62,902 bases of DNA from Candidatus Zhuqueibacterota bacterium (GTDB taxonomy: Bacteria > Zhuqueibacterota > QNDG01 > JABMRT01), in assembly GCA_013202295.1 (NCBI GenBank), contig JABMRT010000268.1:1-62902 (forward strand). The letters run 5' to 3'. The notes beneath the pieces were generated by a model. The model had not been told where the DNA came from. It saw only the letters and a list, made by a program, of their open reading frames with translations, and did no database searches. The translations under genes and the position numbers were made by a program. How positions within the stretch are numbered: position 1 is the stretch's first letter; each line of letters starts with the position of its first letter. Below are positions 8,040 through 59,187 of the stretch, one piece after another.

Positions 8040-8063
8040 TAAACAACAGATAAAGGTGTCCTG

Positions 8064-11636: not shown

Positions 11637-11671
11637 TCCTGGTCGAATGACAATAAAATGAGGTTCTCGAA

Positions 11672-22554: not shown

Positions 22555-24564
22555 ATGATGAAACTTCAAAAATCCATTTTTATAATCCCAATTGTTGTAT
22601 TGTTTTTTCAATGTGCTTCAGTCTCTGAGTCAAAATTAAAATCAGAATACAAAGGAGGCCAAACAGGATTATCAGGTTTTGTGACAGATGCTGAAACCGG
22701 AGATCCGCTTCCTGCCAGAATCGTACTCAATGATCACCAAAGGCAGACGGTTCAAACTTATTATCAATCTTATCCCGGTATTTATACAGATGACCGGGGC
22801 ATTTTTCAAATAGAGACCAGTCCTGGTACCTATAACCTTATAATTAGCCGAGGGATTGATTATCTCTCTCAGTCACATGAAATTCAGATAAATGAAGGTC
22901 AAACGCTTCATCTTACAATAGCACTTGAATCTTGGGTGCCGCTGAGAAAAATGGGGTGGGTGAATGGTGAGGGGCATGCACATCTGTATACCGACAAACA
23001 TCCGGATGATGAAATGCTGGGAGTAGTCCGGAAAATCTGTCGAGCACAGGGTGTGGATTTTATTGCGACCAACCAGGGTTGGGGCGGATACAATGATGAT
23101 AACTGGCGTGAAGGGTATGCACAATTCTCTGACGAGAAATTCCTGTTGTCTTATGGAGCCGAAATGCCGAAGTACCGGACAGGTCATACGTGGTGGCTCA
23201 ATTTAAAATCCTGCCGTCATTATTTTAAGATGACAATGGATACAGTTTATGAAAACGGGTATTACCAGTCCCCGAAGGCTGAAACCTGGCAGTTTGCCGA
23301 TCTTCCGTTCCCGAATATCCCGGACGTGGAACTGATTCCCTATTTCAAGAATGCGGATGAAGCGGTTGCCTGTATTGCACATCCGACCTCATGGTGGTGG
23401 CAGAAACGTGGAGATATCGAGAAATATACGACCAATGTGTGTGAGTATCTGTCGTTCAGTCTGCTGGCCGGCAATCTATGGGACGGCATGGTGGTCATGG
23501 GGTATGACAAGGATCATTATTTTTATCAGAACCTCTGGTTTCACGTGCTGAATGAAGGATACCGGCTCACACCTCTGGCTGAACTCGATGGTGGCTATGG
23601 AGAGAACAACAAGTTTCCATATGGTTCCATGAGAGTCTACTATCAGGTGGGAGAGCATATGTCCATGTCAAATATCGCGGAGGCCGTGCGAAAGGGGAGG
23701 ACGTTTGTCACGTCCGGCCCGATTGTTTTTGCCGATATGGATGGACAATATCAAGTTGGTGATGTTGTGCCGGCTGATGGGATGAAGCATAAACTGTACA
23801 TCGATGCCTATGCCTCAGGTGAGATCGATGATTATCTATCCTACGTTATCGTTTTCCGCAACGGCAAAATCCATAAACTTTGGGATCTGCGTGATGAGAA
23901 GCCCCGGCATGTAGAGAAAAACCTCGAGATCATAGAGTCAAAGCAGGCATGGTATGCGATCAAAGCGTATGGAAGGGATGCCTGGGAAGATCCCAAGAAT
24001 CTGGATGTGATGGCTGTGTGTGAGGAGATCCAGACCGGTACTTTTAAGGGTGAGATTCGGAAAGAAAATTCGAATTGCATGACAAGTCCCTTTTATTTCA
24101 GGTCAGAATCGATGTCAGATCCAGCTCCTTTGGAGTCGAATGTCACACTGACATTAAAACATCCAAAGACAAAGCTGTTGGTCAAAAAAGCAAGGATTGA
24201 TGTCCTCCTCAATGGAAATAAAATAAATGAGTTGGATGTGACGAATGGACAGGTATCCTTTAAAATGCCTGTGAACGCAATACTGAAAATATCATCTCCC
24301 GGATTACCGACCATCCGGCGTGGCCTATACCTTGATTATCCGCCTCATCAGAAAATGATCGAGACTTTTGCCAGCGGCCGCTGGCTGGATCAAAGTAACT
24401 GGAAAAAACTTCTCAGTCCGGGACAGGTGCCATGGGAAGCGTTTCAGTTCGAGAAGGCACGCTCCGTTCTGTCCAACGTGGACTGGATCCTTGAAATGAA
24501 GCCCAATGAACGAGACGAGCTGTGGGAAGAGTTTGAGCGGTTGTTTGAGGCCGGTACTCAGTGA
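22555..24564 (+). CDS. CehA/McbA-family metallohydrolase lipoprotein
   Basis: 669 residues. Lipoprotein Cys20 (LFFQC). A carboxypeptidase-regulatory-like sandwich (about 36-120; GFVTDAETGDPLPARIVL) is followed by a PHP-type metallohydrolase of the CehA/McbA family (about 130-470) with metal-site histidines in GEGHAHLYTDKH, a middle IAHPTSWW and a late RKGRTFVTSGP. The 190 residues after about 480 (from VMAVCEEIQ) form a C-terminal module that is nearly repeated in the chimeric frame at 30838. It starts 11 bases after the GH38 stop; either ATG 22555 or 22558 may be used. The family includes a carbamate hydrolase; the substrate here is unknown. Confidence 0.8.
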   Translation: MMKLQKSIFIIPIVVLFFQCASVSESKLKSEYKGGQTGLSGFVTDAETGDPLPARIVLNDHQRQTVQTYYQSYPGIYTDDRGIFQIETSPGTYNLIISRGIDYLSQSHEIQINEGQTLHLTIALESWVPLRKMGWVNGEGHAHLYTDKHPDDEMLGVVRKICRAQGVDFIATNQGWGGYNDDNWREGYAQFSDEKFLLSYGAEMPKYRTGHTWWLNLKSCRHYFKMTMDTVYENGYYQSPKAETWQFADLPFPNIPDVELIPYFKNADEAVACIAHPTSWWWQKRGDIEKYTTNVCEYLSFSLLAGNLWDGMVVMGYDKDHYFYQNLWFHVLNEGYRLTPLAELDGGYGENNKFPYGSMRVYYQVGEHMSMSNIAEAVRKGRTFVTSGPIVFADMDGQYQVGDVVPADGMKHKLYIDAYASGEIDDYLSYVIVFRNGKIHKLWDLRDEKPRHVEKNLEIIESKQAWYAIKAYGRDAWEDPKNLDVMAVCEEIQTGTFKGEIRKENSNCMTSPFYFRSESMSDPAPLESNVTLTLKHPKTKLLVKKARIDVLLNGNKINELDVTNGQVSFKMPVNAILKISSPGLPTIRRGLYLDYPPHQKMIETFASGRWLDQSNWKKLLSPGQVPWEAFQFEKARSVLSNVDWILEMKPNERDELWEEFERLFEAGTQ

Positions 24565-24644
24565 ATCAATATGGATCTATAATATCGACCCATTTATTTT
24601 CGAAAAGGACGCTGTTTCAGCTTTCATAACAAAGGAATTTTGAA

Positions 24645-26978
24645 ATGATTAAATTGAAGAAAGATTATATCTACTACTTTATATATTTAATTTTTTTAAG
24701 TCTGATTTTTTCATGTACAAACCAGGTGGATAACACGGTTTTGCACAATAAATTAAAAACCGAGATCCGGCAGTCTGAAGGAAAACCAACTTTATTTGTC
24801 AATAATGAGCCTCATCACGGACTATTTTGTTCGGTGCCGATGAATTATATGCAGAATTTTATTGATGCAGGATTTGATGTTTTTGATACACATCCGTTTA
24901 CACCCCATGGCTGGGTTGGAGAAGACCAATATGATTATACAGATACCGATACTTACATTGAAAGCTATTTAAAACAAAAACCTGATGCGTTATTGATTCT
25001 TCGGATTTGGATGGGATATAATCAATCTGGCCCTGGCGATTGGATAAATAAACCTGATTGGTACGTTAACGAACACCCTGATGCAGCCATTCAAACCACT
25101 CACGGTCCACAGGGACAGGATGATCATGTATTGGTATCACCCTCATTTGCATCGGCAGACTATCGTGAAAAGGCAGGAATTGCGATCAAAAATATGATCG
25201 AACATGTTGAGAGCAAGTATGGAAACAATATATTGGGTTATGTAGTCGGTGGTGGGCCTTGTGGTGAATGGTTTCATTGGTTTGCCTATTATTGCCAGCG
25301 GGATCAAAGTCCAGAGCTGTTAGATGATTATTCAGAACCAATGAAGAAGACGTTTATTGCCTTTGCAAAAGAAAAATATCGAACAATAGCGGACGTGAAT
25401 AAAACCTGGCACACGGACTATCAAACATTTGAAGATATTACATTGCCGGGAATTGAATCAAGATTAAACGCGACTATCGGCAACATTCGGGACGGGCGTC
25501 AGGAACAGAAAGTATTGGATTTTTATCATGTTTTTAATCGCCAAACAATTAATAACCTTTTGCATTGGACCGCAAAGGCAAAAGAAGGTTGTCGCAATCA
25601 AAAAGTGATTATGGCATTTTATGGATATTTATGGCATAATCAGGATGGCGTCGTGCAGGCGCGGTCTGGCCATATTGACCTCGATATGGCATTATCATCT
25701 CCGGATATTGATTATATCATTGCTCCATCTCATTATACATTTCGACAATTGGAAGGCGTCATTTCAGGCCAGGGAGTCGTGTCCAGCACGTTATTCCGTG
25801 AGAAGCAATATATTCAAGAGATTGACGGCTCCACATTTCTTAAAAAAAGCTGGCCCTGTACCACCCATGCGAATCCGGTTGATATCGATGAGACGATCCA
25901 TTTATTAAAACGTGACCTCGGCAAAGTATTGACTGAAGGTTCGTCTGCCTGGATCATGGATTTAATGGGTGGTATGTATGATGACCCGGAGTTGATACAG
26001 GAATTAAAACAGATTACTGAAATTGCAAAAACGCATTACCATCAAACCGGACACAATAACAAACAAGTGGCTGTTGTTTTAAATCCTGATGAGTCATTCT
26101 ATTTTAAAGAAGCCGAACAACTGCTGGTGCCATTAATCTCTATGTTTAAGCAATATGAACTGGAACGTATGGGATTGGGATATGATGATCTGATTTTGGA
26201 AGATTTGAAATATCTGTCTCAAGAACAAACAGAACGCTATAAGTTCTGGATATTCCCTTCTGCTATTTCACTCTCAGATGAAGAAATCAGACTTATCCGT
26301 AAACATTGTATGCGGAATGATAATTACATTTTATGGAATTATGCTCCTGCTGTTTGGACGGAAAATGGATTAAATTTAGAGCGAATGAAAGAATTAACAG
26401 GATTTGATTGTGGCTACACTTTAGAACCAGGTGAAGCAATTGTAAAAATCGCAAAGCCAACTCATCCAATATTAGAAGGATTGGATTTACCCATTACTTT
26501 TGGCACCAATGGCGATTTATCGCGAGATGATATTAAATATCATGCCTGTTTGGGAGTTTACCCATCTAACAATGATAAATTCAATGTAACTCCCAGATTC
26601 TATATAAAGAAGGCTGATCAGACACTTGGAGATTTAGTTTCTTATCAAAATGGGAAGTATGGCGGTTTTGGCTTAAAAGATATGGGAAACTGGACTTCGG
26701 TCTTAAGCACGGTTCCGTTAACTCCCAATGCCATTTTACGTAATATTGCACGAGCAGCGGGATGCCATGTATACTCTGATATTTTAGGACAAACTTTTCA
26801 TTGTAAAAACTATATCGGTATGTTTTTTCATGAAGATGGTGAGTGTCAAATTAAGTTACCTTATCGTGTTGATGTTGTGAAAGATGTCTGGACTAACCAA
26901 GAAATAGCCAGGAATGTCGATAAACTTGATCTGACTGTGAAAAAAAATAATGCCGTTTTATATACTTATTCACGATGA
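24645..26978 (+). CDS. GH42-like clan GH-A glycosidase lipoprotein
   Basis: 777 residues with lipoprotein Cys24 (LIFSC). A TIM-barrel follows; Glu208 in GGGPCGEWFHW and Glu392 in QYIQEIDGS fit acid/base and nucleophile of a GH-A enzyme. A later Rossmann-like region (about 465-650; VAVVLNPDESFYF, LKYLSQEQTERYKFWIFP) resembles the trimerisation domain of beta-galactosidase GH42. Probable role is release of terminal beta-linked galactose or a related sugar. It is distant from well-known GH42, so the substrate is open. Its stop overlaps the next start (ATGA). Confidence 0.7.
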   Translation: MIKLKKDYIYYFIYLIFLSLIFSCTNQVDNTVLHNKLKTEIRQSEGKPTLFVNNEPHHGLFCSVPMNYMQNFIDAGFDVFDTHPFTPHGWVGEDQYDYTDTDTYIESYLKQKPDALLILRIWMGYNQSGPGDWINKPDWYVNEHPDAAIQTTHGPQGQDDHVLVSPSFASADYREKAGIAIKNMIEHVESKYGNNILGYVVGGGPCGEWFHWFAYYCQRDQSPELLDDYSEPMKKTFIAFAKEKYRTIADVNKTWHTDYQTFEDITLPGIESRLNATIGNIRDGRQEQKVLDFYHVFNRQTINNLLHWTAKAKEGCRNQKVIMAFYGYLWHNQDGVVQARSGHIDLDMALSSPDIDYIIAPSHYTFRQLEGVISGQGVVSSTLFREKQYIQEIDGSTFLKKSWPCTTHANPVDIDETIHLLKRDLGKVLTEGSSAWIMDLMGGMYDDPELIQELKQITEIAKTHYHQTGHNNKQVAVVLNPDESFYFKEAEQLLVPLISMFKQYELERMGLGYDDLILEDLKYLSQEQTERYKFWIFPSAISLSDEEIRLIRKHCMRNDNYILWNYAPAVWTENGLNLERMKELTGFDCGYTLEPGEAIVKIAKPTHPILEGLDLPITFGTNGDLSRDDIKYHACLGVYPSNNDKFNVTPRFYIKKADQTLGDLVSYQNGKYGGFGLKDMGNWTSVLSTVPLTPNAILRNIARAAGCHVYSDILGQTFHCKNYIGMFFHEDGECQIKLPYRVDVVKDVWTNQEIARNVDKLDLTVKKNNAVLYTYSR

Positions 26979-27295
26979 AAAGAGCAACTGTTTTGCTTTT
27001 CATGTTGGTATGTGGATTTTTTGTGTTTAATTGCAACTCAAACAAGACCGATTTTACTGAAATCATTTTAGATGAAAACAGTCTGCTGAACTGTTGGACA
27101 AAAACCATTGGTGATTTGAATCAGGATGGAATAGACGAGCTGGTAATCGGTGGGCATAATGGTGGTGGACTCTGTGTTTTTATGTCACCAAAACTCAATA
27201 AAATTCAAATTACCAATATGCCGGGACTTTCAACGTATGCAGAAGTCGCGGATATCGATAATGACGTAAAAATATGGTTGAATAACTTGAAGTAA
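26975..27295 (+). pseudogene. Truncated FG-GAP/VCBS repeat lipoprotein
   Basis: 106 codons, overlapping the previous stop (ATGA). A probable lipoprotein signal (FVFNC, Cys20) is followed by one calcium-binding FG-GAP motif (GDLNQDGIDELVIGGHNGGG) and the start of a second (YAEVADIDND), where the expected DG continuation is missing and the frame jumps to VKIWLNNLK and a stop. Full-length relatives have several such propeller blades and are hundreds of residues long, so this looks like an internal deletion that joined the first blade to a late one. It could still make a small lipoprotein. The 115 bases that follow show nothing. Confidence 0.6.
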
Positions 27296-27410
27296 TGAAT
27301 AAAAGATTAACAGATGTTAAATGCACAATTGAAGTGATGGAAAAGAACGAGACACCTTATTAACTTAGTTAGAAGCCCTGTTTTAACCTGTAGAGGAAGG
27401 AAGTATCCAA

Positions 27411-30400
27411 ATGCTGAAAAGGACATATTTTTCGTTTTTCTTAATGACTCTATTATTTTGTGCTGTCTTTGCGATTGGTGCTGATGTGGTTCATATCGGA
27501 ACAGCTGATTATAATGCCATTGTGTTGGTGATAGAAACGGCTGATGGAGAAAACACGCCTACGCAGGATGCTTCATCGTGGAAAGTTAACGACTCAAATC
27601 CAGTACTGGTTGGTAGATATACCTATGTTTGGTATGAGGAAAAGGCTGCGGGTGCGAGATACCCGGTCACGTTGCGACATCATATGTACATCAAACTGTC
27701 TGATCCATTAATGGATGACTCGACATACACCATCGAAACACCATTCGGGATTCAGGTTTTAAATTTCAGTGAAACAGAAACCCGCTGTGAGGCCATTCAT
27801 GTCAATCAAGTCGGATATTTCGGAGGATCTTCCATTCGCTATGCCAACATGGGAATTTTCCTAGGTGATATGGGCACACGTGCCATTGATCCATTACCTC
27901 AATGTCGTGTGCTGTCACAAGCCGATGGATCTGAAGTGATGGCCGGCACCTTATCTTATTGGGGCGATGACACAGATCCCGAAATGGAAAGCGGTGAACA
28001 TGTCTATCGTATTGATCTTTTGGATTTACCCGATGGCGGTCCCTATATCATTTCGGTTGATGGCTATGGGTGCTCCTATCCCTTTGGTGTGGGTCCGGAT
28101 TACATCAATCAATCGGCCTATGTTCATTTTCGTGGACTCTATCATCAACGATGCGGCATTGCATTGGAAGAACCCTATACATCTTTTACCCGCGGGACTT
28201 GTCATACTTCTGTTGAAGTAACTGATGCCGAACCGCCTGATTTTATAACCGAACGCGGCACAGCCATGGAGATACACGGAGGCTATCATGATGCCGGAGA
28301 TTTTGACAGGCGGTTGAGTCATGTCATGATTCCTGCGTGGATGCTTAATTTATATGAAGCCTATCCCGATCAATTTACCGACAATCAGTATAATATCCCC
28401 GAATCGAGTAATGGCATTCCTGATTGGCTGGATGAAGCCTTATGGGGGCTTCTGGTCTGGGAATATCTTCAGGATGAGAGCGGTGGTGTCCGGGCAGGTA
28501 CTGAAGCAAACAGGCATCCAGGATATGGAGATGTCAATGCAGAAACAGATGACTTAATATATCGAACCTACAAAATATATGGACATAACACAGCATTTTG
28601 TGCCGGCTTGTTTGCCCATGCTTCAAGGCTGGTAGAGCCCTATGATACCACTCGTGCGGCTGAATTGTTAGAACGATCGCAACGGGCCTGGGCTTATTTG
28701 CAGATCCATGATATGCCCACAGCCCATGATGCACAGATGATGTACGCCTCTCTTCAACTCTACCTGGCAACTGAAAATGAGGTGTATCATACCGCATTTC
28801 AGCAGCATGCCACCTATTGTCTGACGTCCGGCTGGCCTGAACAATATCATCCCATTTATTTTAATTTGAACACTGTACGCGATGGTATGATTTTTACTCC
28901 CTATTTCTTTCCTTATTTAATTACCGACTTATCGACTGATCAGACTCTTGTGGATGAGTATACACAACTTCTTTCATCCAAGGCTAATGAAATGTTAACA
29001 TTGGTCAATGAGCAACCCTATCCTCTCGGAGATGCCAGAGGTAATCTGGCCTGGGGAAATGCCACCAATCAAGGTCGTTATGCAGATCCCATGATTTTGA
29101 CTTACCGGTTGACTGAGGATGACAGGTATTTATCCGCAGTTAGTCAATTGGCAGATTATACTCTGGGTTTAAATCCATTGGGCAAGGTTTATGTTACGGG
29201 TTTGGGTTCCAATCCTCCCAATTGTCCGCTTCAACTGGATTCCTATTTTACCCACCAAGAAGGCAAAGGGAATGTTCCAGGAATTGTGGTATTTGGTCCT
29301 GTGAGTTCTCCCAGTAATGCAAACTGGGAAAAAGCGGTTTGGTCTCATGTGTATCCGAATTATGAATCTCTCCCCATGCAGCGCCGGTATACAGATGGCT
29401 GGTCTTTTGTGGGTGCCAATGAATTTACTCCTCAATCGACCATGGTTTTAAATATCTGCATGTATGGATTTTTAAGTTCTATAGGAGGAGGGGGTGTGAT
29501 TGCGGATCCACCTGCTGTGCCCGACGAATTGACTTTAGGAGCTCTGTCAAGCCATCAAATATCTGTCTCCTGGTCAGATAATTCTGATGATGAGCATGGA
29601 TTTAAAATTGAACGCAAAACAGGAGAGAATGGAGTCTATTCTCAAATTGCATCGGTGAATACAGATACAACATCCATTACGGACAACGGACTTTTGCCGT
29701 CCACACCCTATTATTACAGAGTTCGTGCCTACAATAGCGGTGGCAATTCTGAATATTCTGCCGAAAGTTCGATCAACACACTGGGGGGGCCTTTGTCTCC
29801 AAGTGAGCTTTCAGTAACACCTTCTTCTTCCAGTCAGATGGATCTTTCGTGGACGGACAATGCCACTGATGAAGATGGATTTAAAATTGAACGGAAAACA
29901 ATCAACGCATCTGACTGGTCTGAAATTGCTGAAGTTGGTGTAGATGAAACGATTTACTCAGATACCGATCTCTCTATGGGAATGACCTATTATTATCGGG
30001 TTTATGCTTTTAACATCGATGGCATTTCTGACTATTCGAATGAAGCATACGGCACGCTGAGTGGTGGGAATATTGCATTAAACCGTCCTGTATATGTGTC
30101 TTCAATTGAAAGTAGTGATATCGATTCTTCACATGCTGTTGATGGTGACATGTCAACCCGATGGGCCAGCGATCGATCTGACCCCCAGTGGATCTATGTG
30201 GATTTGGGAGCAATTTATCCCATTTACCAAGTCATCCTTCATTGGGAAGCAGCTTATGGCAGTGAGTATGAAATACAGGTTTCTGATGATGCTGTTGATT
30301 GGACCACCCTTTATACTGAGACAGAGGGGAATGGCGGCACTGACGAAGTTTCGGGATTGTCAGGCAATGGACGATATGTTCGTATGTATGGCACTGCCAG

Positions 30401-30779
30401 GGGAACGAATTGGGGATATTCACTTTGGGAGTTTGAAGTTTACAGTGATGCCACCAGTCAAGTCTCGTCAGATGTAACTAACTTGCCCGGTTCATTTATT
30501 CTTGAGAATAATTACCCCAATCCGTTCAATCCGCAAACCCATATTCGCTATTCAATTTCTGAAAATGCATGGGTCGAACTGGATATCTTCAATATTCGGG
30601 GAGAAAAAATAAAATCACTGGTCAAGGCGCATCAGTCTACCGGTTATTATACTGTGATGTGGGATGCATTAAATAATTCAGGAGATCAGATATCGAGCGG
30701 TGTCTATTTTTATAAAATCAGGGTCATCGGCCAGTCAAAGAACTTTACAGAAGTCAGGAAGCTGTTGTTTACCAAATAA
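27411..30779 (+). CDS. GH9 endoglucanase-like enzyme with Fn3-Fn3-CBM32 and sorting domain (copy 1)
   Basis: 1122 residues: signal peptide (1-24), cellulase-N Ig-like region (about 25-215), GH9 (alpha/alpha)6 catalytic domain (about 220-690) with GGYHDAGDFDRR (Asp pair near 293-296) and the late general-acid region GANEFTPQSTM (Glu near 670), two fibronectin III domains (about 700-875), CBM32/discoidin domain (about 885-1010; SHAVDGDMSTRWAS), and the FlgD-like sorting module (NNYPNPFNPQT, ending VRKLLFTK). GH9 enzymes cut beta-1,4-glucans or act as exo-glucosaminidases. It is a paralogue of the GH9 at 34396, which lacks Fn3 and CBM32. Surface display is expected from the sorting domain. Confidence 0.92.
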   Translation: MLKRTYFSFFLMTLLFCAVFAIGADVVHIGTADYNAIVLVIETADGENTPTQDASSWKVNDSNPVLVGRYTYVWYEEKAAGARYPVTLRHHMYIKLSDPLMDDSTYTIETPFGIQVLNFSETETRCEAIHVNQVGYFGGSSIRYANMGIFLGDMGTRAIDPLPQCRVLSQADGSEVMAGTLSYWGDDTDPEMESGEHVYRIDLLDLPDGGPYIISVDGYGCSYPFGVGPDYINQSAYVHFRGLYHQRCGIALEEPYTSFTRGTCHTSVEVTDAEPPDFITERGTAMEIHGGYHDAGDFDRRLSHVMIPAWMLNLYEAYPDQFTDNQYNIPESSNGIPDWLDEALWGLLVWEYLQDESGGVRAGTEANRHPGYGDVNAETDDLIYRTYKIYGHNTAFCAGLFAHASRLVEPYDTTRAAELLERSQRAWAYLQIHDMPTAHDAQMMYASLQLYLATENEVYHTAFQQHATYCLTSGWPEQYHPIYFNLNTVRDGMIFTPYFFPYLITDLSTDQTLVDEYTQLLSSKANEMLTLVNEQPYPLGDARGNLAWGNATNQGRYADPMILTYRLTEDDRYLSAVSQLADYTLGLNPLGKVYVTGLGSNPPNCPLQLDSYFTHQEGKGNVPGIVVFGPVSSPSNANWEKAVWSHVYPNYESLPMQRRYTDGWSFVGANEFTPQSTMVLNICMYGFLSSIGGGGVIADPPAVPDELTLGALSSHQISVSWSDNSDDEHGFKIERKTGENGVYSQIASVNTDTTSITDNGLLPSTPYYYRVRAYNSGGNSEYSAESSINTLGGPLSPSELSVTPSSSSQMDLSWTDNATDEDGFKIERKTINASDWSEIAEVGVDETIYSDTDLSMGMTYYYRVYAFNIDGISDYSNEAYGTLSGGNIALNRPVYVSSIESSDIDSSHAVDGDMSTRWASDRSDPQWIYVDLGAIYPIYQVILHWEAAYGSEYEIQVSDDAVDWTTLYTETEGNGGTDEVSGLSGNGRYVRMYGTARGTNWGYSLWEFEVYSDATSQVSSDVTNLPGSFILENNYPNPFNPQTHIRYSISENAWVELDIFNIRGEKIKSLVKAHQSTGYYTVMWDALNNSGDQISSGVYFYKIRVIGQSKNFTEVRKLLFTK

Positions 30780-30837
30780 AATCAAATCAATTAGAGTTAA
30801 AGCATAGAGGCAGTTGAATTATTCCAGGGGACCAGAT

Positions 30838-31566
30838 ATGGCAGATCAAAAACAGGAAATGATCCTTGCCCTGAATCGGGGACAGCCTTTTACAGCCGTT
30901 CCGATCTGGGAGTTTGAATTTCACCCATGGAATTTGTTTCACAAAAATTCAGTTATTGTTGGAACAGCTTTTCAGAATCTTCCCTCGAATCAGCAGGACA
31001 AAGTTCTACACAGCAATGCTGAGGTGATGGCTGTGTGTGAGCAGATCCAGACCGGGGAATTTAAGGGTGAGGTTCGGAAAGAAAATTCCAATTGTATGAC
31101 AAGTCCATTTTATTTCAGGCCGAAGGCCGTCCAGGACCCCCCGTGTTTAGAAGCGAATGTTATGCTAACATTGGTGGATCCTGAGACAAAACGAAAAGTA
31201 AAGTACGCAAAAATTGAGATTCTCCTGTATGGGGGGAAAATTAAAGAACTGGATGTGACGCAAGGTCAGGTCTCCTTTAATATGCCAGTAAACGCGATGC
31301 TGAAAATATCATCTCCCGGTTTGCCAAAAATTCACCGCAGTCTGTATCTCGATTATCCGCCCCATCAACAGCTTATTGAGACTTTTGCAAGCGGCCGATG
31401 GCTGGAACAAAATAACTGGAAAGAATTTATGAATCCGGGTCAGGTTCCCTGGGAAGCCTTTGCTTTTGAGGAAACAGAAGAGGTGCTTTCCAATGTGAAC
31501 TGGACCATTGAGATTCAAGAAAATAAGCGAGACGCATTGTGGAAAGAATTTGAATCACTCTTTTAA
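30838..31566 (+). CDS. Chimeric frame: UroD-family N-terminus joined to CehA-type C-terminal module
   Basis: 242 residues from ATG 30838 (GGGGA 6-7 bases upstream; a TTG at 30814 is less likely). The first ~64 residues match the UroD-family protein at 36878 with 8 differences over 61 aligned residues (shared core FHPWNLFHKNSVIVGTAFQN). From MAVCEQIQTG onward it instead matches the C-terminus of the CehA/McbA protein at 22555 (shared KENSNCMTSPFYF, SSPGLP, YLDYPPHQ, SGRWL, PGQVPWEAF). The switch falls at the hexamer GTGATG (31024-31029), present in frame in both parents (24007-24012 and 37061-37066). It lacks both the UroD active-site barrel and the CehA metal site, so catalysis is unlikely. 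The frame is intact and has a ribosome site, so a product may be made. Confidence 0.85.
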   Translation: MADQKQEMILALNRGQPFTAVPIWEFEFHPWNLFHKNSVIVGTAFQNLPSNQQDKVLHSNAEVMAVCEQIQTGEFKGEVRKENSNCMTSPFYFRPKAVQDPPCLEANVMLTLVDPETKRKVKYAKIEILLYGGKIKELDVTQGQVSFNMPVNAMLKISSPGLPKIHRSLYLDYPPHQQLIETFASGRWLEQNNWKEFMNPGQVPWEAFAFEETEEVLSNVNWTIEIQENKRDALWKEFESLF

Positions 31567-31578
31567 GAGGAAGAAATC

Positions 31579-32403
31579 ATGAAGCGGAACATCTTTTTGT
31601 TATGGATCATTGTAATTCCCATACAATTACTGCATGCTCAGATTGGAGCGGTGACAATCGAGGGTGACACGGTGCTGCTGAATCCCGACTTTACCTGGCA
31701 ATTCAAACAGTCCCTGGTTCCGGAACTGGTTTTTATACAGGGCGGCGAATTTCAGATGGGGAGTAATCATGTTCTTGCAGATGAAGATGAAAAACCTGTC
31801 CATACGGTCAGATTAAATGATTATAGGATGAGCAAAACCGAGGTCAATGTCAAACAATATAAAATTTTCTGTGATGATACGGGGTATCCGATGCCTGAAG
31901 TCCCTTCCTGGGGGTGGCATGATGAATATCCGATTGTTAATGTAACCTGGCATGACGCTGTTACTTATTGTGACTGGTTGAGTCAAAAAACCGGAATGAA
32001 ATTCCACTTGCCCACAGAGGCCCAATGGGAATTCGCAGCCCGTGGAGGGACTAAAAGTAAGGGAACCATTTATAGCGGTAGCAATCGGATTCAATCAGTC
32101 GCCTGGTATGCTGGGAATACGGATTCCAAGGGGCCTCATCCTGTCGGTACGAAGAAAGCTAATACACTGGGTTTATTTGATATGAGCGGAAACATCGCAG
32201 AATGGTGTCAAGATTATTATGGGAAAAATTATTATACCCGATGTCCCATCGAGAATCCTGCGGGACCAAATCTCGGAACACATCGACTGGTTCGGGGAGG
32301 AAGCTGGAAGGAAGAGGCCATACGGTGCAGATCTACTTTTCGTTATATCAACACAAGCATCATCCCGTATGATTTTATTGGATTCCGTCTGGTCGGAGAT
32401 TGA
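31579..32403 (+). CDS. Secreted SUMF1/formylglycine-generating-enzyme-like protein
   Basis: 274 residues, signal peptide to about residue 20 (LHAQ). SUMF1-fold landmarks: GGEFQMGS, YPIVNVTWHDAVTYCDWL, LPTEAQWEFAARGG, GLFDMSGNIAEWCQDYY, LVRGGSWKEEAIRCRSTFR and terminal IGFRLVGD. True formylglycine-generating enzymes use two cysteines after the GGS(Y/W) motif; here the first position is Glu and only one Cys is present, so sulfatase activation is doubtful. No sulfatase gene is in the window. It follows the chimeric frame by 12 bases. It may be a periplasmic binding or structural member of the family. Confidence 0.85.
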   Translation: MKRNIFLLWIIVIPIQLLHAQIGAVTIEGDTVLLNPDFTWQFKQSLVPELVFIQGGEFQMGSNHVLADEDEKPVHTVRLNDYRMSKTEVNVKQYKIFCDDTGYPMPEVPSWGWHDEYPIVNVTWHDAVTYCDWLSQKTGMKFHLPTEAQWEFAARGGTKSKGTIYSGSNRIQSVAWYAGNTDSKGPHPVGTKKANTLGLFDMSGNIAEWCQDYYGKNYYTRCPIENPAGPNLGTHRLVRGGSWKEEAIRCRSTFRYINTSIIPYDFIGFRLVGD

Positions 32404-32461
32404 TGAACAAATCTTAGAATTGTGACAGCTGTTTTTCACTTTTAGAATGGGAATAATTGTT

Positions 32462-34336
32462 ATGACTCGGAACTTGAATAAGGTCATGCTACTCACTTTG
32501 CTTGGAAATAGTATCCTTATTATTAATCTCATGTCTCAAGACGTACATGTATGGGAAAAAGTCGAATTGGAATTTCAGAGCCAGAACAGCTATGACAATC
32601 CATATACAGAGGTGGAGGTCTGGGTTGATTTAAAGGGACCGGATTTTAATAAACGGTGTTTCGGATTTTGGGATGGTGACAATGTGTACAGGGTGAGACT
32701 CGTAGCCACAACGCCGGGTGTATGGTCCTGGATAAGTGGTTCTAATCAGTATGATGTGGGTCTAAAGAATCAATCCGGCAAATTTAATGCAGTTGCATGG
32801 ACGGAAAAAGATAAAGAAGTCGTGTCAACACGGCGTGGTTATATTCAGCCTACAGAGAATGGTCATGCCTTTGAATATGCGGATGGCGTTCCTTTTATTA
32901 TGATGGGCGATACCTGGTGGTCGACTCCCACATTCCGCTTCCCCTGGTATGATGATGACGAGAGCCGGCCCATAGGACCCACGGCTGGTTTTAAAGATTA
33001 TGTTAAATTTAGAAAGAAACAGGGATTTAACTGTATTGCCATGTTAGCTGCATTTCCTGCATGGGCTGATGATGGAGCTCCCTGGAGAATCGTTCTTGAT
33101 GAAAAAGCCAATCTGGGTGTCCGTTCAGCCTGGGTGCATCAGGGTGATATGCGCGGCGGGAAACGTCATGACCGGATGCGGGCCAAAGATATGCATAATG
33201 AGGGTGGTCGCGCATTTCTGTTTCCGGGTAAAATTCCCGGTTATGAACAGGTCTATCCGGACGTTGATCGGATTAATCCCGAATATTTTAAATACATGGA
33301 TCGAAAAATAGATTATTTAAATGATCAGGGATTTATTCCCTTTATTGAAATCATGCGGCGGGATGCCAGTTCTGCGTGGAAACATTTTTATGACTGGCCC
33401 GATTCCTATGCCCGTTATATACAGTATGTCTGGTCGCGATATCAGGCCAATAATTGTCTTTACAGTCCCATGCATTATGATCACTGGCATATGGCCATCT
33501 CTGAGTCGGATATCAATGATGTGGGCAATTTTGTGATTGAGAAATACGGGGCACCGCCATTTGGAACGCTTGTATCCTGTAATGCCTCCCCGTCATCACT
33601 CATCAATTTCGGGCAATTCGAGAACAATCAATGGCTCACATTTCATCAAACCGGTAACTGGCGGGAGCATGAGTACTACTGGTACTTAACAGAAATTTTT
33701 AATCATGAACCGGTTATGCCCGCCATTAATGGTGAACCTTATTATTCCGGGCTCAGTGATACACGCTACGGCACAGATAAAAGTGTTCCGGTTGGTGGCA
33801 CTGAGCTGGACGCCTTGTACACACGGTCAGCGATTTATGGCAGTTTCCTTTCAGGTGGATTTGGCGGCATTATCTATGGCGCACAGGGATTGTGGGGTGG
33901 TGATGTGGAGTCGGGATCCGATCCGTATATGTGGGATGCCTTTTTATGGATTTCTGCAACGTATGTACAGCATTTAAAAACATTTGTTCTTTCCGAGGGG
34001 AAGAAATATCAGAATTTGATCCCCAATGCGGATCTGATTTCTCCCAATAAAACGCATGAATTAAGGGCGTTTACGGGATGGGCCTATTGTGCTTATACTG
34101 AGGAAAGGGATTACTTCCTCGTTTATTTTGAAAGAGACTGTATCTCCAGTGTTTTACGGGGAACCAGGATCAACTCACTGTATAAAGCGGATTGGTTCAA
34201 TCCGAGAACAGGTGAATGGATACCGGTTGGAGGCACGATCCTTCAGACTGACCGATGGGGTCGAATCAAAGTTCCTGATTTTCCGACGGATGATGATTGG
34301 GGATTGAGACTCACCTTTTTGTCAAAACTAGATTAA
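32462..34336 (+). CDS. DUF5060 / apiosidase-like (DUF4038) glycoside hydrolase
   Basis: 624 residues from ATG 32462 (ATG 32447 also in frame; neither has a strong ribosome site). Signal segment ends near LMSQ. DUF5060 Ig-like domain (about 22-100; WEKVELEFQSQNSYDNPYTEVEVWV, typically seen with such enzymes) precedes a TIM barrel of the apiosidase-like family (about 120-510) with GDTWWSTPTFRF, RKKQGFNCIAMLAAFPAW, FIPFIEIMRR and INGEPYYSG, and a short C-terminal sandwich (about 530-624). Related families include GH140 apiosidases of pectin breakdown. Asp and Glu in the GDTWW and NGEPYY motifs are plausible catalytic residues. Substrate uncertain. Confidence 0.8.
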   Translation: MTRNLNKVMLLTLLGNSILIINLMSQDVHVWEKVELEFQSQNSYDNPYTEVEVWVDLKGPDFNKRCFGFWDGDNVYRVRLVATTPGVWSWISGSNQYDVGLKNQSGKFNAVAWTEKDKEVVSTRRGYIQPTENGHAFEYADGVPFIMMGDTWWSTPTFRFPWYDDDESRPIGPTAGFKDYVKFRKKQGFNCIAMLAAFPAWADDGAPWRIVLDEKANLGVRSAWVHQGDMRGGKRHDRMRAKDMHNEGGRAFLFPGKIPGYEQVYPDVDRINPEYFKYMDRKIDYLNDQGFIPFIEIMRRDASSAWKHFYDWPDSYARYIQYVWSRYQANNCLYSPMHYDHWHMAISESDINDVGNFVIEKYGAPPFGTLVSCNASPSSLINFGQFENNQWLTFHQTGNWREHEYYWYLTEIFNHEPVMPAINGEPYYSGLSDTRYGTDKSVPVGGTELDALYTRSAIYGSFLSGGFGGIIYGAQGLWGGDVESGSDPYMWDAFLWISATYVQHLKTFVLSEGKKYQNLIPNADLISPNKTHELRAFTGWAYCAYTEERDYFLVYFERDCISSVLRGTRINSLYKADWFNPRTGEWIPVGGTILQTDRWGRIKVPDFPTDDDWGLRLTFLSKLD

Positions 34337-34395
34337 AAGTACCTGGAAAATCAATCGATGTATAAAATATCCAGCAACTATTGAAAGGAAAATAC

Positions 34396-36840
34396 GTGGC
34401 CATACAGAAAGTGATGATAAAATATATCAGTGCAGCTTTTTTATTCTGTTTAAGTCAGTTGTGCTTTGCTGGCCAAATTGTCCATGTCGGTACAGCATCC
34501 TCCGATGTCATTGTCGTGGTGATTGAAACAGTGGATGGAGAGGCGGTGCCTTCGCAGGATTCTGCACTTTGGCCGGTTAATGATTCTGAACCATCTCAGG
34601 TTGGCCGTTATTCCTATGTGTGGTATGAAGAAAAAGCGCAGGGTGCGAGATATCCCCTGAGCCAGCGCCATCATATGTATCTGCAGTTGTCCTCTGAATT
34701 GACTGAAGACGCCATTTATATCATTGAGACTCCTTACGGTCCCGACACCTTGGAATTCAATTCACGCGCATCATTGTGTGAATCGATCAAGGTGAATCAA
34801 ACCGGATATTTTGAGTTCGGTACTGTGCGCTATGCCAATCTTGGAATTTTCCTCGGAGATCTGGGTCCTCAGGAACTGATATCCTTGCCCACCTATGATG
34901 TGGTGGATGCATCCTCGGATGAAATTGTATTGTCCGGAGATGTGACCTATTGGGGCGATGACACAGATCCTTCTCCCAGCGCTATTCAAGAACGGGGCAG
35001 CGGAGAATATGTATATCGCATGGATCTGTCCGGTCTAACCGATGGGGGACCATACTATATCTCCATTCCTGGATTCGGAAGATCTTACGAATTCGGTGTT
35101 GGTGAAACCAGCACCAAAGAAATCGCTTATGTACATACGCGCGGGCTTTATCACCAGCGTTGCGGCATTGCACTCGAAGCGCCTTTTACCTCCTTCACAC
35201 GAGGAACCTGTCACACATCAGTGGAGATCACTGAGGCCGATCCGGATGGCTTCATTACTGATCGCGGTGATGTCATGGAAATTCACGGTGGATATCATGA
35301 TGCGGGTGACTTTGATCGCCGATTCGGCCACACTTTAATCCCGGCCTGGATGCTGAATCTTTATGAAGCATTTCCCGATCATTTTGCGGATAAGCAATAT
35401 CTGCTGCCTGAATCCGGAAATGGCATCCCTGACTGGCTCGATGAAACGTTGTGGAGTATTCTGGTATGGGAATATCTTCAGGATGAGAGCGGAGGGATTC
35501 GTGGTGGAACCGAAGCAAACCGACACCCTGAGTACGGCGTAGTCAACGCAGAGACCGATCATCTGATTTATCGCACATACCGGATCTATGGACACACGAC
35601 TGCCGTCGGCGCCGGACTATTCGCCCATGCATCCCGTCTTGTGCGTTCCTTTGATTCACAACGGGCTGACTCGCTTCAGGATCGGGCCGTGAGGGCATGG
35701 GAGTATCTGGAGAGCCACGATCTTGCTACCGCACATGATGCACAGAAAATGTATGCTTCTCTTCAGCTCTATCTGGCCACCGGTGCTGCCGAATACCATG
35801 ATGCTTTCAAGACTCATGCCGGGTATCTTCTGGGGAATCCCGGATGGCCGGAACAGTATAATCCTGTCTGGTGGAATCTTAATACGATCAAAGACGGGAT
35901 GATTTTTACGCCCTACTTTTTCGGTTATCTGATCACAGACAGGGAAGTCGATCCCGGTATCCAGACAGAATTGTCTCAGTTGATTCAAGACGCGGCGCAA
36001 ACTCAACTGAATGTGGTGATGAATCAGCCGTATCCTATTGGTGATACACCTGGTCTGGCATGGGGCACGGCTACCAATCAGGGGCGATATGCAGAGCCCA
36101 TGATACTAATGTATCGTCTTACAGGCGATCAGGAATATCTGGATGGCGTGAGTCTGCTCGCAGATTATAGCCTGGGTTTGAATCCACTCGGGAAATGTTA
36201 TGTGACTGGTCTGGGTGACAATCCGCCAAACTGTCCGCTTCAACTGGATTCTTATTTCACTTATCAGGCGGGTAAAGGCAATGTGCCAGGTATTGTAGTG
36301 TATGGACCTGTGGCTGATCCTAATGATGTAAATTGGGAGCGAGCTGTATGGGAAAAGATCTATCCTGAAATCGATACTCTGCCTGAACAACGACGTTATT
36401 CTGATGGCTGGTCTTTCATCGGCGCGAATGAGTTTACAACCTGGGAGACCATGGCTCTGAATGTATGCATGTATGGTTTTCTCAGCTCGTTTTATGAGCC
36501 AGACACGGTGCATAGTACGGTTAAAAAAAAAGAACACCTTGATGCGCCGGCATCTATAAAACTGCTTCAAAATTATCCCAATCCGTTTAATCCTGTTACC
36601 ACTATTCGTTATTTTCTACCAGAAAATTCAACAGTCAGGCTGGATATTTATAACATCAAGGGACAAAAGATAAAAACGTTGGTGAATAAAAAACAGTCAG
36701 CTGGCACATATACTGTTAGATGGGATGCTTTGAACGAGTCAGGGATTCAGGTTGCAAATGGCGTTTATTTATGTAAAATAAAAGCAACTAACCATTCAAT
36801 GACCTTCTCGGAAGTTAAAAGACTATTGTTTGCTAAATAA
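34396..36840 (+). CDS. GH9 endoglucanase-like enzyme with sorting domain (copy 2)
   Basis: 814 residues from GTG 34396, selected for AAGGA 6 bases upstream (a TTG at 34381 has none). Signal peptide to about residue 25 (CFAG). Ig-like N-domain, GH9 catalytic domain with GGYHDAGDFDRR (about 298-309) and GANEFTTWETM (about 677), then directly the FlgD-like sorting module (QNYPNPFNPVT, ending VKRLLFAK). It is closely similar to the GH9 at 27411 across the catalytic part but has no Fn3 or CBM32. It is followed 37 bases later by a UroD gene, and copy 1 by the UroD-derived chimera, so the unit GH9-UroD was duplicated. Confidence 0.92.
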   Translation: MAIQKVMIKYISAAFLFCLSQLCFAGQIVHVGTASSDVIVVVIETVDGEAVPSQDSALWPVNDSEPSQVGRYSYVWYEEKAQGARYPLSQRHHMYLQLSSELTEDAIYIIETPYGPDTLEFNSRASLCESIKVNQTGYFEFGTVRYANLGIFLGDLGPQELISLPTYDVVDASSDEIVLSGDVTYWGDDTDPSPSAIQERGSGEYVYRMDLSGLTDGGPYYISIPGFGRSYEFGVGETSTKEIAYVHTRGLYHQRCGIALEAPFTSFTRGTCHTSVEITEADPDGFITDRGDVMEIHGGYHDAGDFDRRFGHTLIPAWMLNLYEAFPDHFADKQYLLPESGNGIPDWLDETLWSILVWEYLQDESGGIRGGTEANRHPEYGVVNAETDHLIYRTYRIYGHTTAVGAGLFAHASRLVRSFDSQRADSLQDRAVRAWEYLESHDLATAHDAQKMYASLQLYLATGAAEYHDAFKTHAGYLLGNPGWPEQYNPVWWNLNTIKDGMIFTPYFFGYLITDREVDPGIQTELSQLIQDAAQTQLNVVMNQPYPIGDTPGLAWGTATNQGRYAEPMILMYRLTGDQEYLDGVSLLADYSLGLNPLGKCYVTGLGDNPPNCPLQLDSYFTYQAGKGNVPGIVVYGPVADPNDVNWERAVWEKIYPEIDTLPEQRRYSDGWSFIGANEFTTWETMALNVCMYGFLSSFYEPDTVHSTVKKKEHLDAPASIKLLQNYPNPFNPVTTIRYFLPENSTVRLDIYNIKGQKIKTLVNKKQSAGTYTVRWDALNESGIQVANGVYLCKIKATNHSMTFSEVKRLLFAK

Positions 36841-36877
36841 AATTAGATCATTATGAGAATTATCGAGACGATATGTG

Positions 36878-37861
36878 ATGCTTCAAAAACAGGATATGAT
36901 CATTGCCCTGAACGGAGGGCAGCCTTATACAGCCGTACCTGTCTGGGAGCTGGAATTTCACCCATGGAATTTATTTCATAAAAATTCCGTTATTGTGGGA
37001 ACAGCTTTTCAGAATCTTCCCTCGAGCCAGCAGGATAAAGTTCTGCACAACAATGCTGAGGTGATGATTGATGTGGCTGAGAAACTTTACTTTTCGGCTA
37101 TCACTGTTCCCGGTGGATACTGGGAAGTGGCACCCGGACATCCGGCTTATTTCTGGCTTCCTGAAAAGGCACGCTATGAACAGATCCGTATCCTCAAAAA
37201 AATGGCTCCCGACAACCTGATGCTCATTGCTGGATCGGGCGGCATTCTGGCCATGCCATCCGCAGACGAATATGTGACATTTTCCTGTGAGCTTCTGGAA
37301 TATCCTGAAAAAATCGAAAGTCGCGCCAAATCGTGCCTTAATGCAGGACTCGAAACAGCGCGTCATTTATTTGACTGTGGTATTGATACGGTTTATTCAG
37401 CATCGGATCTGGCGGACAATCATGGCCCTTACTTTAATCCCGATCAGATGCAGCGGCTCATTCTGCCATATCTTTCTGACTGGGCGACAACAATCAGGTC
37501 GATGCAAAAATTCTGCATTCTCCATTCAGATGGGAACCTGATGCCTACTCTTGATCAGATCGCTGACAGCGATATTCATGCCCTGCAGGCTATTGATCCC
37601 GTCGCGGGCATGGATATGAAAACGGTTAAAGGGAAGGTGGCCGGGCGAATCTGTCTCTGCGGTAATGTCGACTGCGGCCTCCTTTTAACCGGAACGCCAG
37701 AAACGGTTTATGAATCCACACGAGCACTCCTGGAAGAAAATAAGTCTGGCGGCGGTCTGGTACTAGGTGCCTCCAATGCTGTGCAAGAGGAGACCCCTTC
37801 AGAAAACTATCTTGCAATGATTGAAGCCTGGAAACGGTTTGGACAGTATGAATTTCAATGA
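36878..37861 (+). CDS. Uroporphyrinogen decarboxylase (URO-D)-family protein
   Basis: 327 residues from ATG 36878; no signal peptide, so cytoplasmic. The URO-D-like barrel shows DLADNHGPYFNPDQMQRLILPYL, FCILHSDGNLMPTLDQIADS, ALQAIDPVAGMDMKTVKGKV, ICLCGNVDCGLLLTGTPETV and GGGLVLGASNAV. This branch is typical of the methylcobamide methyltransferase-like or uncharacterised URO-D proteins common beside glycoside hydrolases, rather than haem biosynthesis; the residues that bind uroporphyrinogen are not recognisable. A His (LHSDG) and Cys (LCGN) could bind metal. It is the intact parent of the N-terminus of the chimera at 30838. Its role in glycan use is unknown. Confidence 0.82.
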   Translation: MLQKQDMIIALNGGQPYTAVPVWELEFHPWNLFHKNSVIVGTAFQNLPSSQQDKVLHNNAEVMIDVAEKLYFSAITVPGGYWEVAPGHPAYFWLPEKARYEQIRILKKMAPDNLMLIAGSGGILAMPSADEYVTFSCELLEYPEKIESRAKSCLNAGLETARHLFDCGIDTVYSASDLADNHGPYFNPDQMQRLILPYLSDWATTIRSMQKFCILHSDGNLMPTLDQIADSDIHALQAIDPVAGMDMKTVKGKVAGRICLCGNVDCGLLLTGTPETVYESTRALLEENKSGGGLVLGASNAVQEETPSENYLAMIEAWKRFGQYEFQ

Positions 37862-37886
37862 GAGAAAATTAAATCTGGAGATGACA

Positions 37887-40217
37887 ATGAATTTCAAATG
37901 GATCCCTTTATTATTTATTCTGACAAAAATGCTTCTAGCTGGCGATCTCCCCGAGTCTCTTTATATTCAGCCCTATTTACAAAATGTATCTCAATCCAGC
38001 ATCGTCATCATGTGGAAAACGACTGAATCCTGTCAGGGCGAAATTCAATATGGACTCTCGATAGATCAAATGACGTTATCTCAGAAGGAATCTTCCTCTA
38101 AAAAATTGCATGAAATTAAATTAAAGGGATTAGAAGTCGGACAATCCTATTATTATCGATGTTTATGGGATGAGGAAAAAACAAAAACCTGGCAATTTAA
38201 AACATCGCCTACACGAGATGAAGAAAATATAAAGATTGTTACTTATGGAGATTCACGTAGCAATCCAAAGGTGCATCATCAAATCGCTCAATTGGTTGCG
38301 GAGGAGAAACCGGATTTAATTTTACACTCCGGTGATTTTGTGATGTATGGTGATGATGAAGCCTCCTGGAAACCGGAGTTTTTTGATCCCATTGCACCTT
38401 TTGGTCCCGAAGTGCCCATCTTAACCGTTTTAGGGAATCACGAGCGTAATGCGGTTTATTATTATAATTTTTATGCACTTAACAATAACGAAGCCTGGTG
38501 GTCTCAGGATTATGGTCCGGTGCATATCATCGGATTAGATAGCAATCAGCCAGGTGAGCCGGGAACTGAGCAATATGAATGGTTGGTTAACGATCTCGAA
38601 ACCCATCAGGATGCCAAATGGATTATTGCCATGTTTCATCATCCACTTTTTAATGCAAACAAATGGCGCGATACTTATTATCTGCGCTGGCACTGGCACC
38701 CTTTGTTCGAAAAGTACAATGTCGATATCGTCATTAACGGGGATGACCATTATTATTATAGATCGTTACCGATTGGCCTTACAGCCGAAGAGCAGAATGG
38801 TGTGACTTACATTATTTCGGCCGGAGGAGGCGCTCCTCTTTATCCAACTACGCATGAAGATTATGTCGCCCAGAGAAGAAGCATTTATCATTATACGGTG
38901 TTTGATATTCAGGGTGATCATTTGATCGGGCGTGCGGTTAATGTGGATGGAAAGGTCTTTGATACATGGGGAATGCATAAAGATGAAATGATAGCACCTG
39001 AATCTTTTATTTCCTATGAAATGATTTTACTTGAAGAAGCGCTTAAAAAGCAATTTTCTGTATCCTGGCTTCAGGAAGAGAATGGTAAAATGGCATTCTC
39101 CTGCGACTTTGTTCTGCCGACATCGTTTCAGATTCCGGTTCAAGTCAATGTTCGCTGGGAGAGCGGAACGCAGTGGTTTTTTAAAGAAAGTAATATAACC
39201 CATGTTATTCAACCTGGAGAGTCCATCCCTTTTCAATTTTCTGGGATTGTACCTTTTGATCAAATGGTTCCTTTGCCGGCATTACGGGTTGATATTGAAG
39301 GGTTGGAATCAGAACGCTGGGAAGATGTCCGATTGCCCACCGGATTTAAAAATACAAATATTCGTTTGAATTTGGAAAATGCATTTTATCAGGCCATCAA
39401 AGATCAAAACAGTGCATTTACAAATTATGCCGATGCAATTCAATTTTTGAATTATTTCCCGGAAAGTCAATATGCCGAGGCAATCAAGAAATATTTCTTC
39501 GAAACGGTTCAATCTGAAGATTTGGCATCTCCATCTATAATAAAAAATATTGAAAAGTTGATCAAGTCAGCTCAAACCCCTCAGGCTGAATCTGTTTATT
39601 ATCCCATGATGTTTTTGCTGGGTGATTTCTCCCAATGGGACATGTGGCTGAATATGGTTCATGGTTTTAAATTGCGTGAGCGGGAGCCTCTGCGTAAGAA
39701 TTTAATTGCTCTCTCAGAATCTGAGAAGGTATCCGGCGGTGCTATCAATAACTGGTATGTTTTAGGTTCCTTTGAAAATACGGATGACAAGGGTTTTGAT
39801 GCCATGTATCCTCCTGAAAATACTGTGGATTTAGATACATCCTATCCGGGTGTTCAGGGAGAATCCATACACTGGAAGAAAATGAAACTCAATGCCGGTA
39901 ATCAATTTGATTTTAATCAATTGTTTAAAGAACATGAATATGGCATTGTTTATTGTTATACTACAATTAAATCGTTAAAAGATACTGTTTTGCCCTTACT
40001 TTTGGGAAGTGACGACGGTATTGTTGTTTGGATAAACGGTCAGGAAATTTATCGCCACAATGAAGCGCGGGGTGTGGTGCCGGGTCAGGATTTTCTGTTT
40101 GCCGAATTCAATCAGGGTGCCAATGAATTGTTAATCAAGGTCAGTCAAAAAGGCGGTGGATGGGGCGTATCTGCACACATTTTGGACAAAGAGAACGTGT
40201 TAACCTTTATAAAATAA
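37887..40217 (+). CDS. Purple-acid-phosphatase-like metallophosphoesterase with sugar-binding-like C-domain
   Basis: 776 residues from ATG 37887 (GGAG 6 bases upstream). Signal peptide to about 19. Fibronectin III-like N-domain of purple acid phosphatases (about 22-115), then the metallophosphoesterase core: YGDSRSN, LHSGDFV, LGNHER, MFHHPLFN, NGDDHYYYR. These are the five metal-ligand blocks, all present. A long middle region has no recognisable domain. The C-terminus (about 700-776) carries LLGSDDGIVVWINGQEIY and IKVSQKGGGWG, the same sandwich as in GH38 at 18890. It should hydrolyse phosphomonoesters or diesters in the periplasm, which would suit phosphorylated glycans. Confidence 0.88.
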   Translation: MNFKWIPLLFILTKMLLAGDLPESLYIQPYLQNVSQSSIVIMWKTTESCQGEIQYGLSIDQMTLSQKESSSKKLHEIKLKGLEVGQSYYYRCLWDEEKTKTWQFKTSPTRDEENIKIVTYGDSRSNPKVHHQIAQLVAEEKPDLILHSGDFVMYGDDEASWKPEFFDPIAPFGPEVPILTVLGNHERNAVYYYNFYALNNNEAWWSQDYGPVHIIGLDSNQPGEPGTEQYEWLVNDLETHQDAKWIIAMFHHPLFNANKWRDTYYLRWHWHPLFEKYNVDIVINGDDHYYYRSLPIGLTAEEQNGVTYIISAGGGAPLYPTTHEDYVAQRRSIYHYTVFDIQGDHLIGRAVNVDGKVFDTWGMHKDEMIAPESFISYEMILLEEALKKQFSVSWLQEENGKMAFSCDFVLPTSFQIPVQVNVRWESGTQWFFKESNITHVIQPGESIPFQFSGIVPFDQMVPLPALRVDIEGLESERWEDVRLPTGFKNTNIRLNLENAFYQAIKDQNSAFTNYADAIQFLNYFPESQYAEAIKKYFFETVQSEDLASPSIIKNIEKLIKSAQTPQAESVYYPMMFLLGDFSQWDMWLNMVHGFKLREREPLRKNLIALSESEKVSGGAINNWYVLGSFENTDDKGFDAMYPPENTVDLDTSYPGVQGESIHWKKMKLNAGNQFDFNQLFKEHEYGIVYCYTTIKSLKDTVLPLLLGSDDGIVVWINGQEIYRHNEARGVVPGQDFLFAEFNQGANELLIKVSQKGGGWGVSAHILDKENVLTFIK

Positions 40218-44560: not shown

Positions 44561-44780
44561 GGTGGTAAATGGCGGTATGGACACATATGAACAAAACAAT
44601 AGGTTGCAATTTAGTTTGATAGGTAATTATTAAACTTAACTTGCTTTCCCGCGGATTGTAAATCCGTGTGTCCCCAGTTTTCTGCCTGTCGGCAGACAGG
44701 GATTCTGGGAGACGCCACTCCAAAGGCTTGGTAAGTAGATAAACGCCTTTTTCGTTTTGTTGTGAAGGATTAGGATCTGA
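44561..44780. repeat. Intergenic repeat, copy B
   Basis: Left end GGTGGTAAATGGCGG then TATGGACACATATG matches copy C (58942 on) at about 27 of 33 bases. Shared blocks follow in order: AAATCCGTGTGTCCC, GACAGGGATTCTGGGA, CGCCAC, and a GCCTTTTTCGTTTT T-tract. It contains a CTGCC/GGCAG hairpin (44683-44696 region) and, unlike C, a 5-bp stem/7-nt loop TTGTAAA (44651-44667) that looks like a tRNA-Tyr anticodon arm. The right end (expected TGGAYACAT complement) is worn. The flanks 44487-44560 and 44781-44944 hold nothing recognisable. Confidence 0.6.
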
Positions 44781-58941: not shown

Positions 58942-59187
58942 GGTGGCAAATGATGGTGTGGACACATATGTACAGTTATGGATAAAACTATAGAATGCGC
59001 GTTATCTTCTTCATCGAGTTCGATAGTTTGTTCTTATTAAGCTTAACTCACTTGCCTGTGGAAAGAAAATCCGTGTGTCCCAAGTTCCATACCTGTTGGA
59101 AGACAGGGATTCTGGGAAGCGCCACAAAATTAGCCATAGACCTAAAAGGTCGCGGGCTTTTTCTTTTTATGGTAAGGAATGTATCCA
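58942..59187. repeat. Intergenic repeat, copy C (best preserved ends)
   Basis: Shares the ordered blocks of copy B. The core runs from TGGACACAT (58959-58967) to ATGTATCCA (59179-59187), which are inverted repeats with one mismatch, enclosing 229 bases. Inside lies GACCTAAAAGGTC followed by a GCGGGCTTTTTCTTTTT tract, a plausible terminator. A 65-codon frame (58995-59192) is spurious. The rest of 59188-59427 is AT-rich and must hold the promoter of the next gene; TTGACA and TATAAT are visible near 59370-59403 but 21 bases apart. Confidence 0.6.

Follow-up and report, generated by a model that had tools for sequence, protein, structure and literature searches.

The window analysed here is a stretch of 62,902 nucleotides from the draft genome of an uncultured KSB1 bacterium (5.15 Mb in 303 contigs, completeness 95.65%). 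On its plus strand, a CehA/McbA metallohydrolase gene (starting at 22555) is followed by a GH42-like gene (24645), an FG-GAP fragment (26975) and GH9a (27411); next comes an open reading frame (30838) in which the N-terminus of a URO-D protein is joined in frame to the C-terminus of CehA, and after it an FGE-type gene (31579), an apiosidase-like gene (32447), GH9b (34381) and a complete URO-D gene (36878). The features of the locus are as follows.

22555–24564, plus strand: intact upstream parent, a lipoprotein-like CehA/McbA metallohydrolase of 669 aa (NF038032 above its cut-off, residues 134–515)
24645–27295, plus strand: filler of unit A, the GH42-like gene and the truncated FG-GAP fragment
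27411–30779, plus strand: GH9a, 1122 aa with a T9SS-type C-terminal tail, closing unit A before the chimera
30838–31566, plus strand: chimeric ORF of 242 aa, URO-D N-terminus and CehA C-terminus in frame (ORF list, sequence, BLASTP against both parents)
30847–31029, plus strand: URO-D-derived 5' segment of the chimera, 88.5% identical in nucleotides to 36884–37066 (dS 0.46, dN 0.057)
31024–31029, plus strand: joint GTGATG, in frame in both parents (24007–24012 and 37061–37066)
31030–31119, plus strand: first CehA-derived stretch, where the CehA/McbA domain ends (its last ~30 residues), of low synonymous divergence (changepoint, sliding dS)
31120–31563, plus strand: old CehA C-terminal module, 69% identical in nucleotides, its synonymous sites near saturation
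31579–34336, plus strand: filler of unit B, the FGE-sulfatase-type gene and the apiosidase-like gene
34381–36840, plus strand: GH9b of unit B, 819 aa, about 63–64% identical to GH9a
36878–37861, plus strand: intact downstream parent, a URO-D/MtaA-like protein of 327 aa (PF01208, E 5.5e-21)

The chimeric frame is open from its ATG at 30838 to a TAA at 31564–31566, and a purine-rich AGGGGA lies just 5' of the ATG. Residues 4–64 correspond to codons 3–63 of URO-D; over these 61 codons, 53 of the 61 amino acids are identical to those of the gene at 36878, and 30847–31029 differs from 36884–37066 by 21 nucleotides and 8 amino acids (BLASTP E 2e-35). The remainder (31024–31563) aligns with 24007–24546 and corresponds to CehA residues 485–664, with 70% amino acid identity over 183 aa (BLASTP E 1e-86). 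Both parental matches are far beyond chance. The residues that span the joint are ...LHSNAEVMAVCEQIQTG.... A first-pass annotation, made from the sequence of the window, had described an intact in-frame fusion of these same two genes, with 8 differences in 61 URO-D residues and a switch at a GTGATG shared in frame at 24007, 31024 and 37061, and alignment of the three regions bears out each of these points; its assignment of the other half to CehA is likewise correct, but that half is about 180 residues long rather than the ~190 proposed.

The genes on either side of the chimera form two units. When the DNA of 24007–31029 was compared with that of 31024–37900, three homologous blocks were found, the CehA end, GH9, and the GH9 end together with the URO-D start; this homology extends from 24007–24536 versus 31024–31553, by way of the GH9 genes, to 30510–31029 versus 36571–37066. 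In the same comparison, the sequence that precedes CehA codon 485 and the sequence that follows URO-D codon 63 proved to be unrepeated. At both ends the homology stops at the joint, which marks the chimera as the border of two tandem units. GH9a and GH9b are lineage-specific duplicates, since they are 64% identical to each other and their next-best relative in the 20 genomes compared is only 38% identical. GH9a also has two fibronectin III domains and one F5/8 type C domain (29500–30470), located between its catalytic domain and its C-terminal tail, that are absent from GH9b. While the duplication takes in the CehA end, GH9 and the URO-D start, the fillers consist of different genes in the two units, and the DNA comparison detected no homology beyond chance between them. 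The spacing of the copies is nearly equal (7017 nt for 24129–31146 and 7009 nt for 28103–35112) with unrelated genes between them and, as the fillers have no homology, this near-equality looks coincidental. The FG-GAP-type ORF adjoining GH9a (26975–27295, 106 aa, lipoprotein-like) is seemingly truncated and is possibly a gene remnant. Apart from the chimera, the source genome has only one CehA and one close URO-D, and no further parental copies.

The chimera thus consists of the 5' part of a downstream gene and the 3' part of an upstream gene, with the intact parents on its outer sides, which is the arrangement that a short-junction tandem duplication leaves behind. Comparable chimeras are known from Staphylococcus aureus, in which tandem duplications with short junctions yield nusG'-'sigH and rplK'-'sigH fusions that were selected in the laboratory and are reversible, the unit being 1.2 kb in the B1 clone (PMC3486894). 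There too, the 5' part of the downstream gene is joined in frame at a short repeat to the 3' part of the upstream one, intact copies remain on the outside, and the start signals come from the downstream gene (PMC3486894). In contrast to the S. aureus cases, the KSB1 unit is old, diverged and ~7 kb long, carries a later patch over its joint, and has a product that is predicted. Microhomology joints are also usual in duplications in Escherichia coli; the duplications and amplifications that arise in starving cells have 3–30 bp of microhomology at their junctions, and complex joints into which nearby sequence is inserted (PMC3161906). The KSB1 joint resembles them in both respects, in its microhomology of a few bases between otherwise non-homologous sequences and in its complexity, but the E. 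coli mechanism was experimentally demonstrated, whereas in KSB1 we infer it from the sequence (PMC3161906). The URO-D'-'CehA frame is a real chimera of natural origin that belongs to a known kind and is situated at a tandem-duplication boundary, a position that the first-pass annotation had not recognized; it had likewise missed the younger age of the DNA across the joint.

We consider it probable that an old tandem duplication of the block CehA – filler – GH9 – URO-D has the chimera as its joint, that the patch across this joint was remade later, and that the chimera is now likely a passenger of its operon. The chimera itself, the gene order, the limits of homology, the young patch and the low dN/dS are observed, and from them we deduce the duplication, its mechanism and the lack of a function. 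An ancestral glycan-degradation block would have been duplicated in tandem when replication slipped, or switched template, from the URO-D start (codon 63) back to the CehA end (codon 485) at the 6-nt GTGATG; such a switch would leave CehA whole at the left, URO-D whole at the right and an in-frame URO-D'-'CehA between them. A single duplication would explain the full layout with no extra deletion, given that the GH9 genes are lineage-specific duplicates and that the flank homology ends at one point. The first-pass annotation had instead invoked a microhomology-mediated deletion that joined an ancestral URO-D to a CehA copy lying downstream; the 6-nt joint makes the microhomology plausible, but deletion is not the most economical route to the layout. 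Nonetheless, the non-homologous fillers mean that replacement or reciprocal loss must be added to the duplication account, and the young patch with its two donors needs at least one further event.

This patch occupies ~274 bp across the joint (30846–31119). It is ~90% identical to both parents, with a dS of about 0.4 (0.46 in the URO-D part and, by sliding dS, 0.32 in the first 30 CehA codons), and it is markedly younger than its flanks, because the synonymous sites of GH9a/GH9b and of the CehA part beyond 31120 are nearly saturated. At 31120 the divergence of the CehA part from its parent rises from 10% to 31% (changepoint, permutation p 0.001), and on the other side 14 of 61 third positions differ in the URO-D N-terminus versus 36 of 61 in the adjoining GH9 end (p 9e-5). 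Constraint on protein or codons as the cause of the low divergence beside the joint was ruled out, as CehA orthologues have no special conservation there; in that stretch, the orthologues of two other genomes of the phylum differ with a pN of 0.34–0.39 and a saturated pS. The duplicated parts, which in an unmodified duplication would share one age, are consequently not all equally old, and the label of tandem duplication fits the layout rather than an untouched joint; a later event is required. The patch was formed, or homogenised, later than its flanks, and its donor differs from one side to the other. At a time corresponding to a dS of about 0.4, it would have been remade from both intact parents by gene conversion or template-switch repair, and the surrounding copies would have gone on diverging after that event. 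Several routes would produce it equally well: gene conversion from each of the parents, template-switch repair in two steps, or an array that was amplified and then collapsed. The origin of the chimera is ordinary; it is the younger patch across the joint that is unusual.

The same divergence values bear on whether the contig could be an artefact of assembly that joins two loci, either from the same genome or from two strains. The assembly is a draft in many contigs and incomplete, and the related records found are metagenome assemblies. However, the patch is ~10% different from both parents and the adjoining flanks 31–36% different, which makes a k-mer misjoin unlikely; moreover, the ORF is intact over every boundary and there is one copy only of each parent. 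We therefore regard an artefact as very improbable, in agreement with the first-pass annotation, which had argued from the divergence of both halves that this was no simple assembly join.

A biological alternative, which takes up the deletion of the first-pass annotation, is that a larger block, with complete URO-D and CehA genes, was duplicated, that its inner genes were partly converted by the outer copies, and that a recent microhomology-mediated deletion then fused the two; the chimera would be young debris, and its constraint a legacy of the full-length genes. The layout that results from such a larger duplication and a subsequent deletion is identical to that of the one-step event, and this history would explain the parental constraint in both halves without any function. 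Conversion tracts are natural along full-length genes, 6 of the 8 URO-D changes are at sites that vary in the family, and fusion-specific changes affect 6 of 103 otherwise invariant sites, versus 3 in the parents. Against this stand the number of steps, a larger duplication, conversions and a deletion that erased all traces of the unit ends, and the finding that no remnant of CehA codons 1–484 or of URO-D codons 64–327 lies between the units. We find this history possible but rather doubtful, and retain the single tandem duplication with a later patch as the preferred reading. It counts against the preferred reading that no intermediate state was found among 119 relatives and 82 genomes of the phylum, its own included. 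A search of the same set, including genome contigs, found no fusion; its hits were confined to a fragment at a contig end and to two genomes of the phylum in which full-length CehA and URO-D lie on different contigs. The fusion is accordingly absent from all of the 81 other phylum genomes in this set.

Whichever its origin, the reading frame shows constraint. The dN/dS is low in both halves and 0.145 in the patch; a neutral chimera simulated over the whole time would have accumulated 39–40 nonsynonymous differences, versus 12.5 observed, and the simulation allows a neutral share of at most about 30% of the time since the patch. Had the frame been neutral throughout, the probability of no stop in 242 codons would be about 0.003. 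Provided that the fusion is not much younger than the patch, the low dN/dS and the open frame reject neutral drift from the patch onwards, and they speak against a long-lived neutral passenger. The sequence has thus been under constraint during most of the period that followed the patch; the chimera is either in use or was only recently cut from full-length genes. For the new protein that the first-pass annotation suggested, the signal is ambiguous: the frame shows constraint, but after a recent fusion this could simply have come down from the full-length parents.

No domain model of Pfam or NCBIfam matches the chimera. The NF038032 catalytic domain of the CehA parent covers residues 134–515, and the chimera begins at CehA residue 485; it keeps the last ~30 domain residues and the C-terminal module of this metallohydrolase, and lacks its signal sequence, N-terminal beta domain and catalytic part with the metal-binding domain. 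Similarly, its first 61 residues follow a member of the URO-D/MtaA methylcobamide:CoM methyltransferase family (PF01208, PDB 4ay7), but they stop at residue 63; the missing residues 64–327 include the whole Pfam-matched region (100–320) and the barrel with the C-terminal active-site half. Neither parental catalytic apparatus is kept, and the chimera is apparently enzyme-dead. The lipoprotein-like signal LFFQC with which the CehA parent starts (sequence inspection) is also absent. Structure prediction gives a beta-sandwich at residues 105–168 (pLDDT about 77–96) and no confident fold for the URO-D stub (pLDDT 33–59), the alignment behind the model being shallow; the prediction for full CehA is a poor model. 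In a fold search the chimera had weak beta-sandwich matches only, none at E <= 0.001. If made, the product would be cytoplasmic, with one beta-sandwich and with no signal peptide, URO-D barrel or CehA metal site. A scan of the surroundings of the ORF found no more promoters or terminators than in shuffles. Directly 3' of its stop is GAGGAAG, and the FGE gene starts 12 nt after the stop. As this ribosome-site-like GAGGAAG abuts the stop, keeping the frame open may be of importance for how the operon is translated.

Judged from the sequence, the chimera most likely rides along in its operon as a co-translated passenger with a frame that has escaped decay, and its functional weight is probably minor; a maintained role in binding or coupling is a live alternative. 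In its stronger form, which is compatible with either origin, the chimera would be a functional gene that purifying selection has maintained ever since the patch arose, for example as a cytoplasmic beta-sandwich binding protein or as an open frame that lets ribosomes through to the FGE gene. The dN/dS of the patch, the improbability of an unbroken neutral frame and the stop codon followed at once by the next gene's GAGGAAG all argue for it. On the other hand, the constraint could be older than the fusion, the catalytic residues and export signal are lost, the stub has no confident fold, and the phylum set lacks any conserved homologue of the fusion. Hence, we hold a functional gene to be a tentative proposition. 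We think it unlikely that a gene was born at the duplication joint, was kept by purifying selection in nature because it encodes a new cytoplasmic protein made of a URO-D stub and the C-terminal module of an exported enzyme, and was re-homogenised at its joint by the two parents that still exist.

Chimeric genes at duplication joints have been proposed as raw material for new proteins. The clear bacterial cases that we found come from laboratory selections, and the KSB1 chimera is an old natural case. As both parents persist beside it, the origin and the fate of such a gene can be dated, and the younger patch would be an example of a chimera that evolves in concert with two donors.

Elsewhere in the window, genes for a TonB-receptor-like protein, an unassigned protein of 1190 aa and a PorV-like protein (5361–12733) lie 10 kb from CehA; in another genome of the phylum (L016), these genes adjoin CehA. 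A dispersed intergenic repeat, for which there is no Rfam match, is present at 44627–44718 and 59034–59125 (80% alike within the window), and a search with 44600–44760 located it at six places in the genome.
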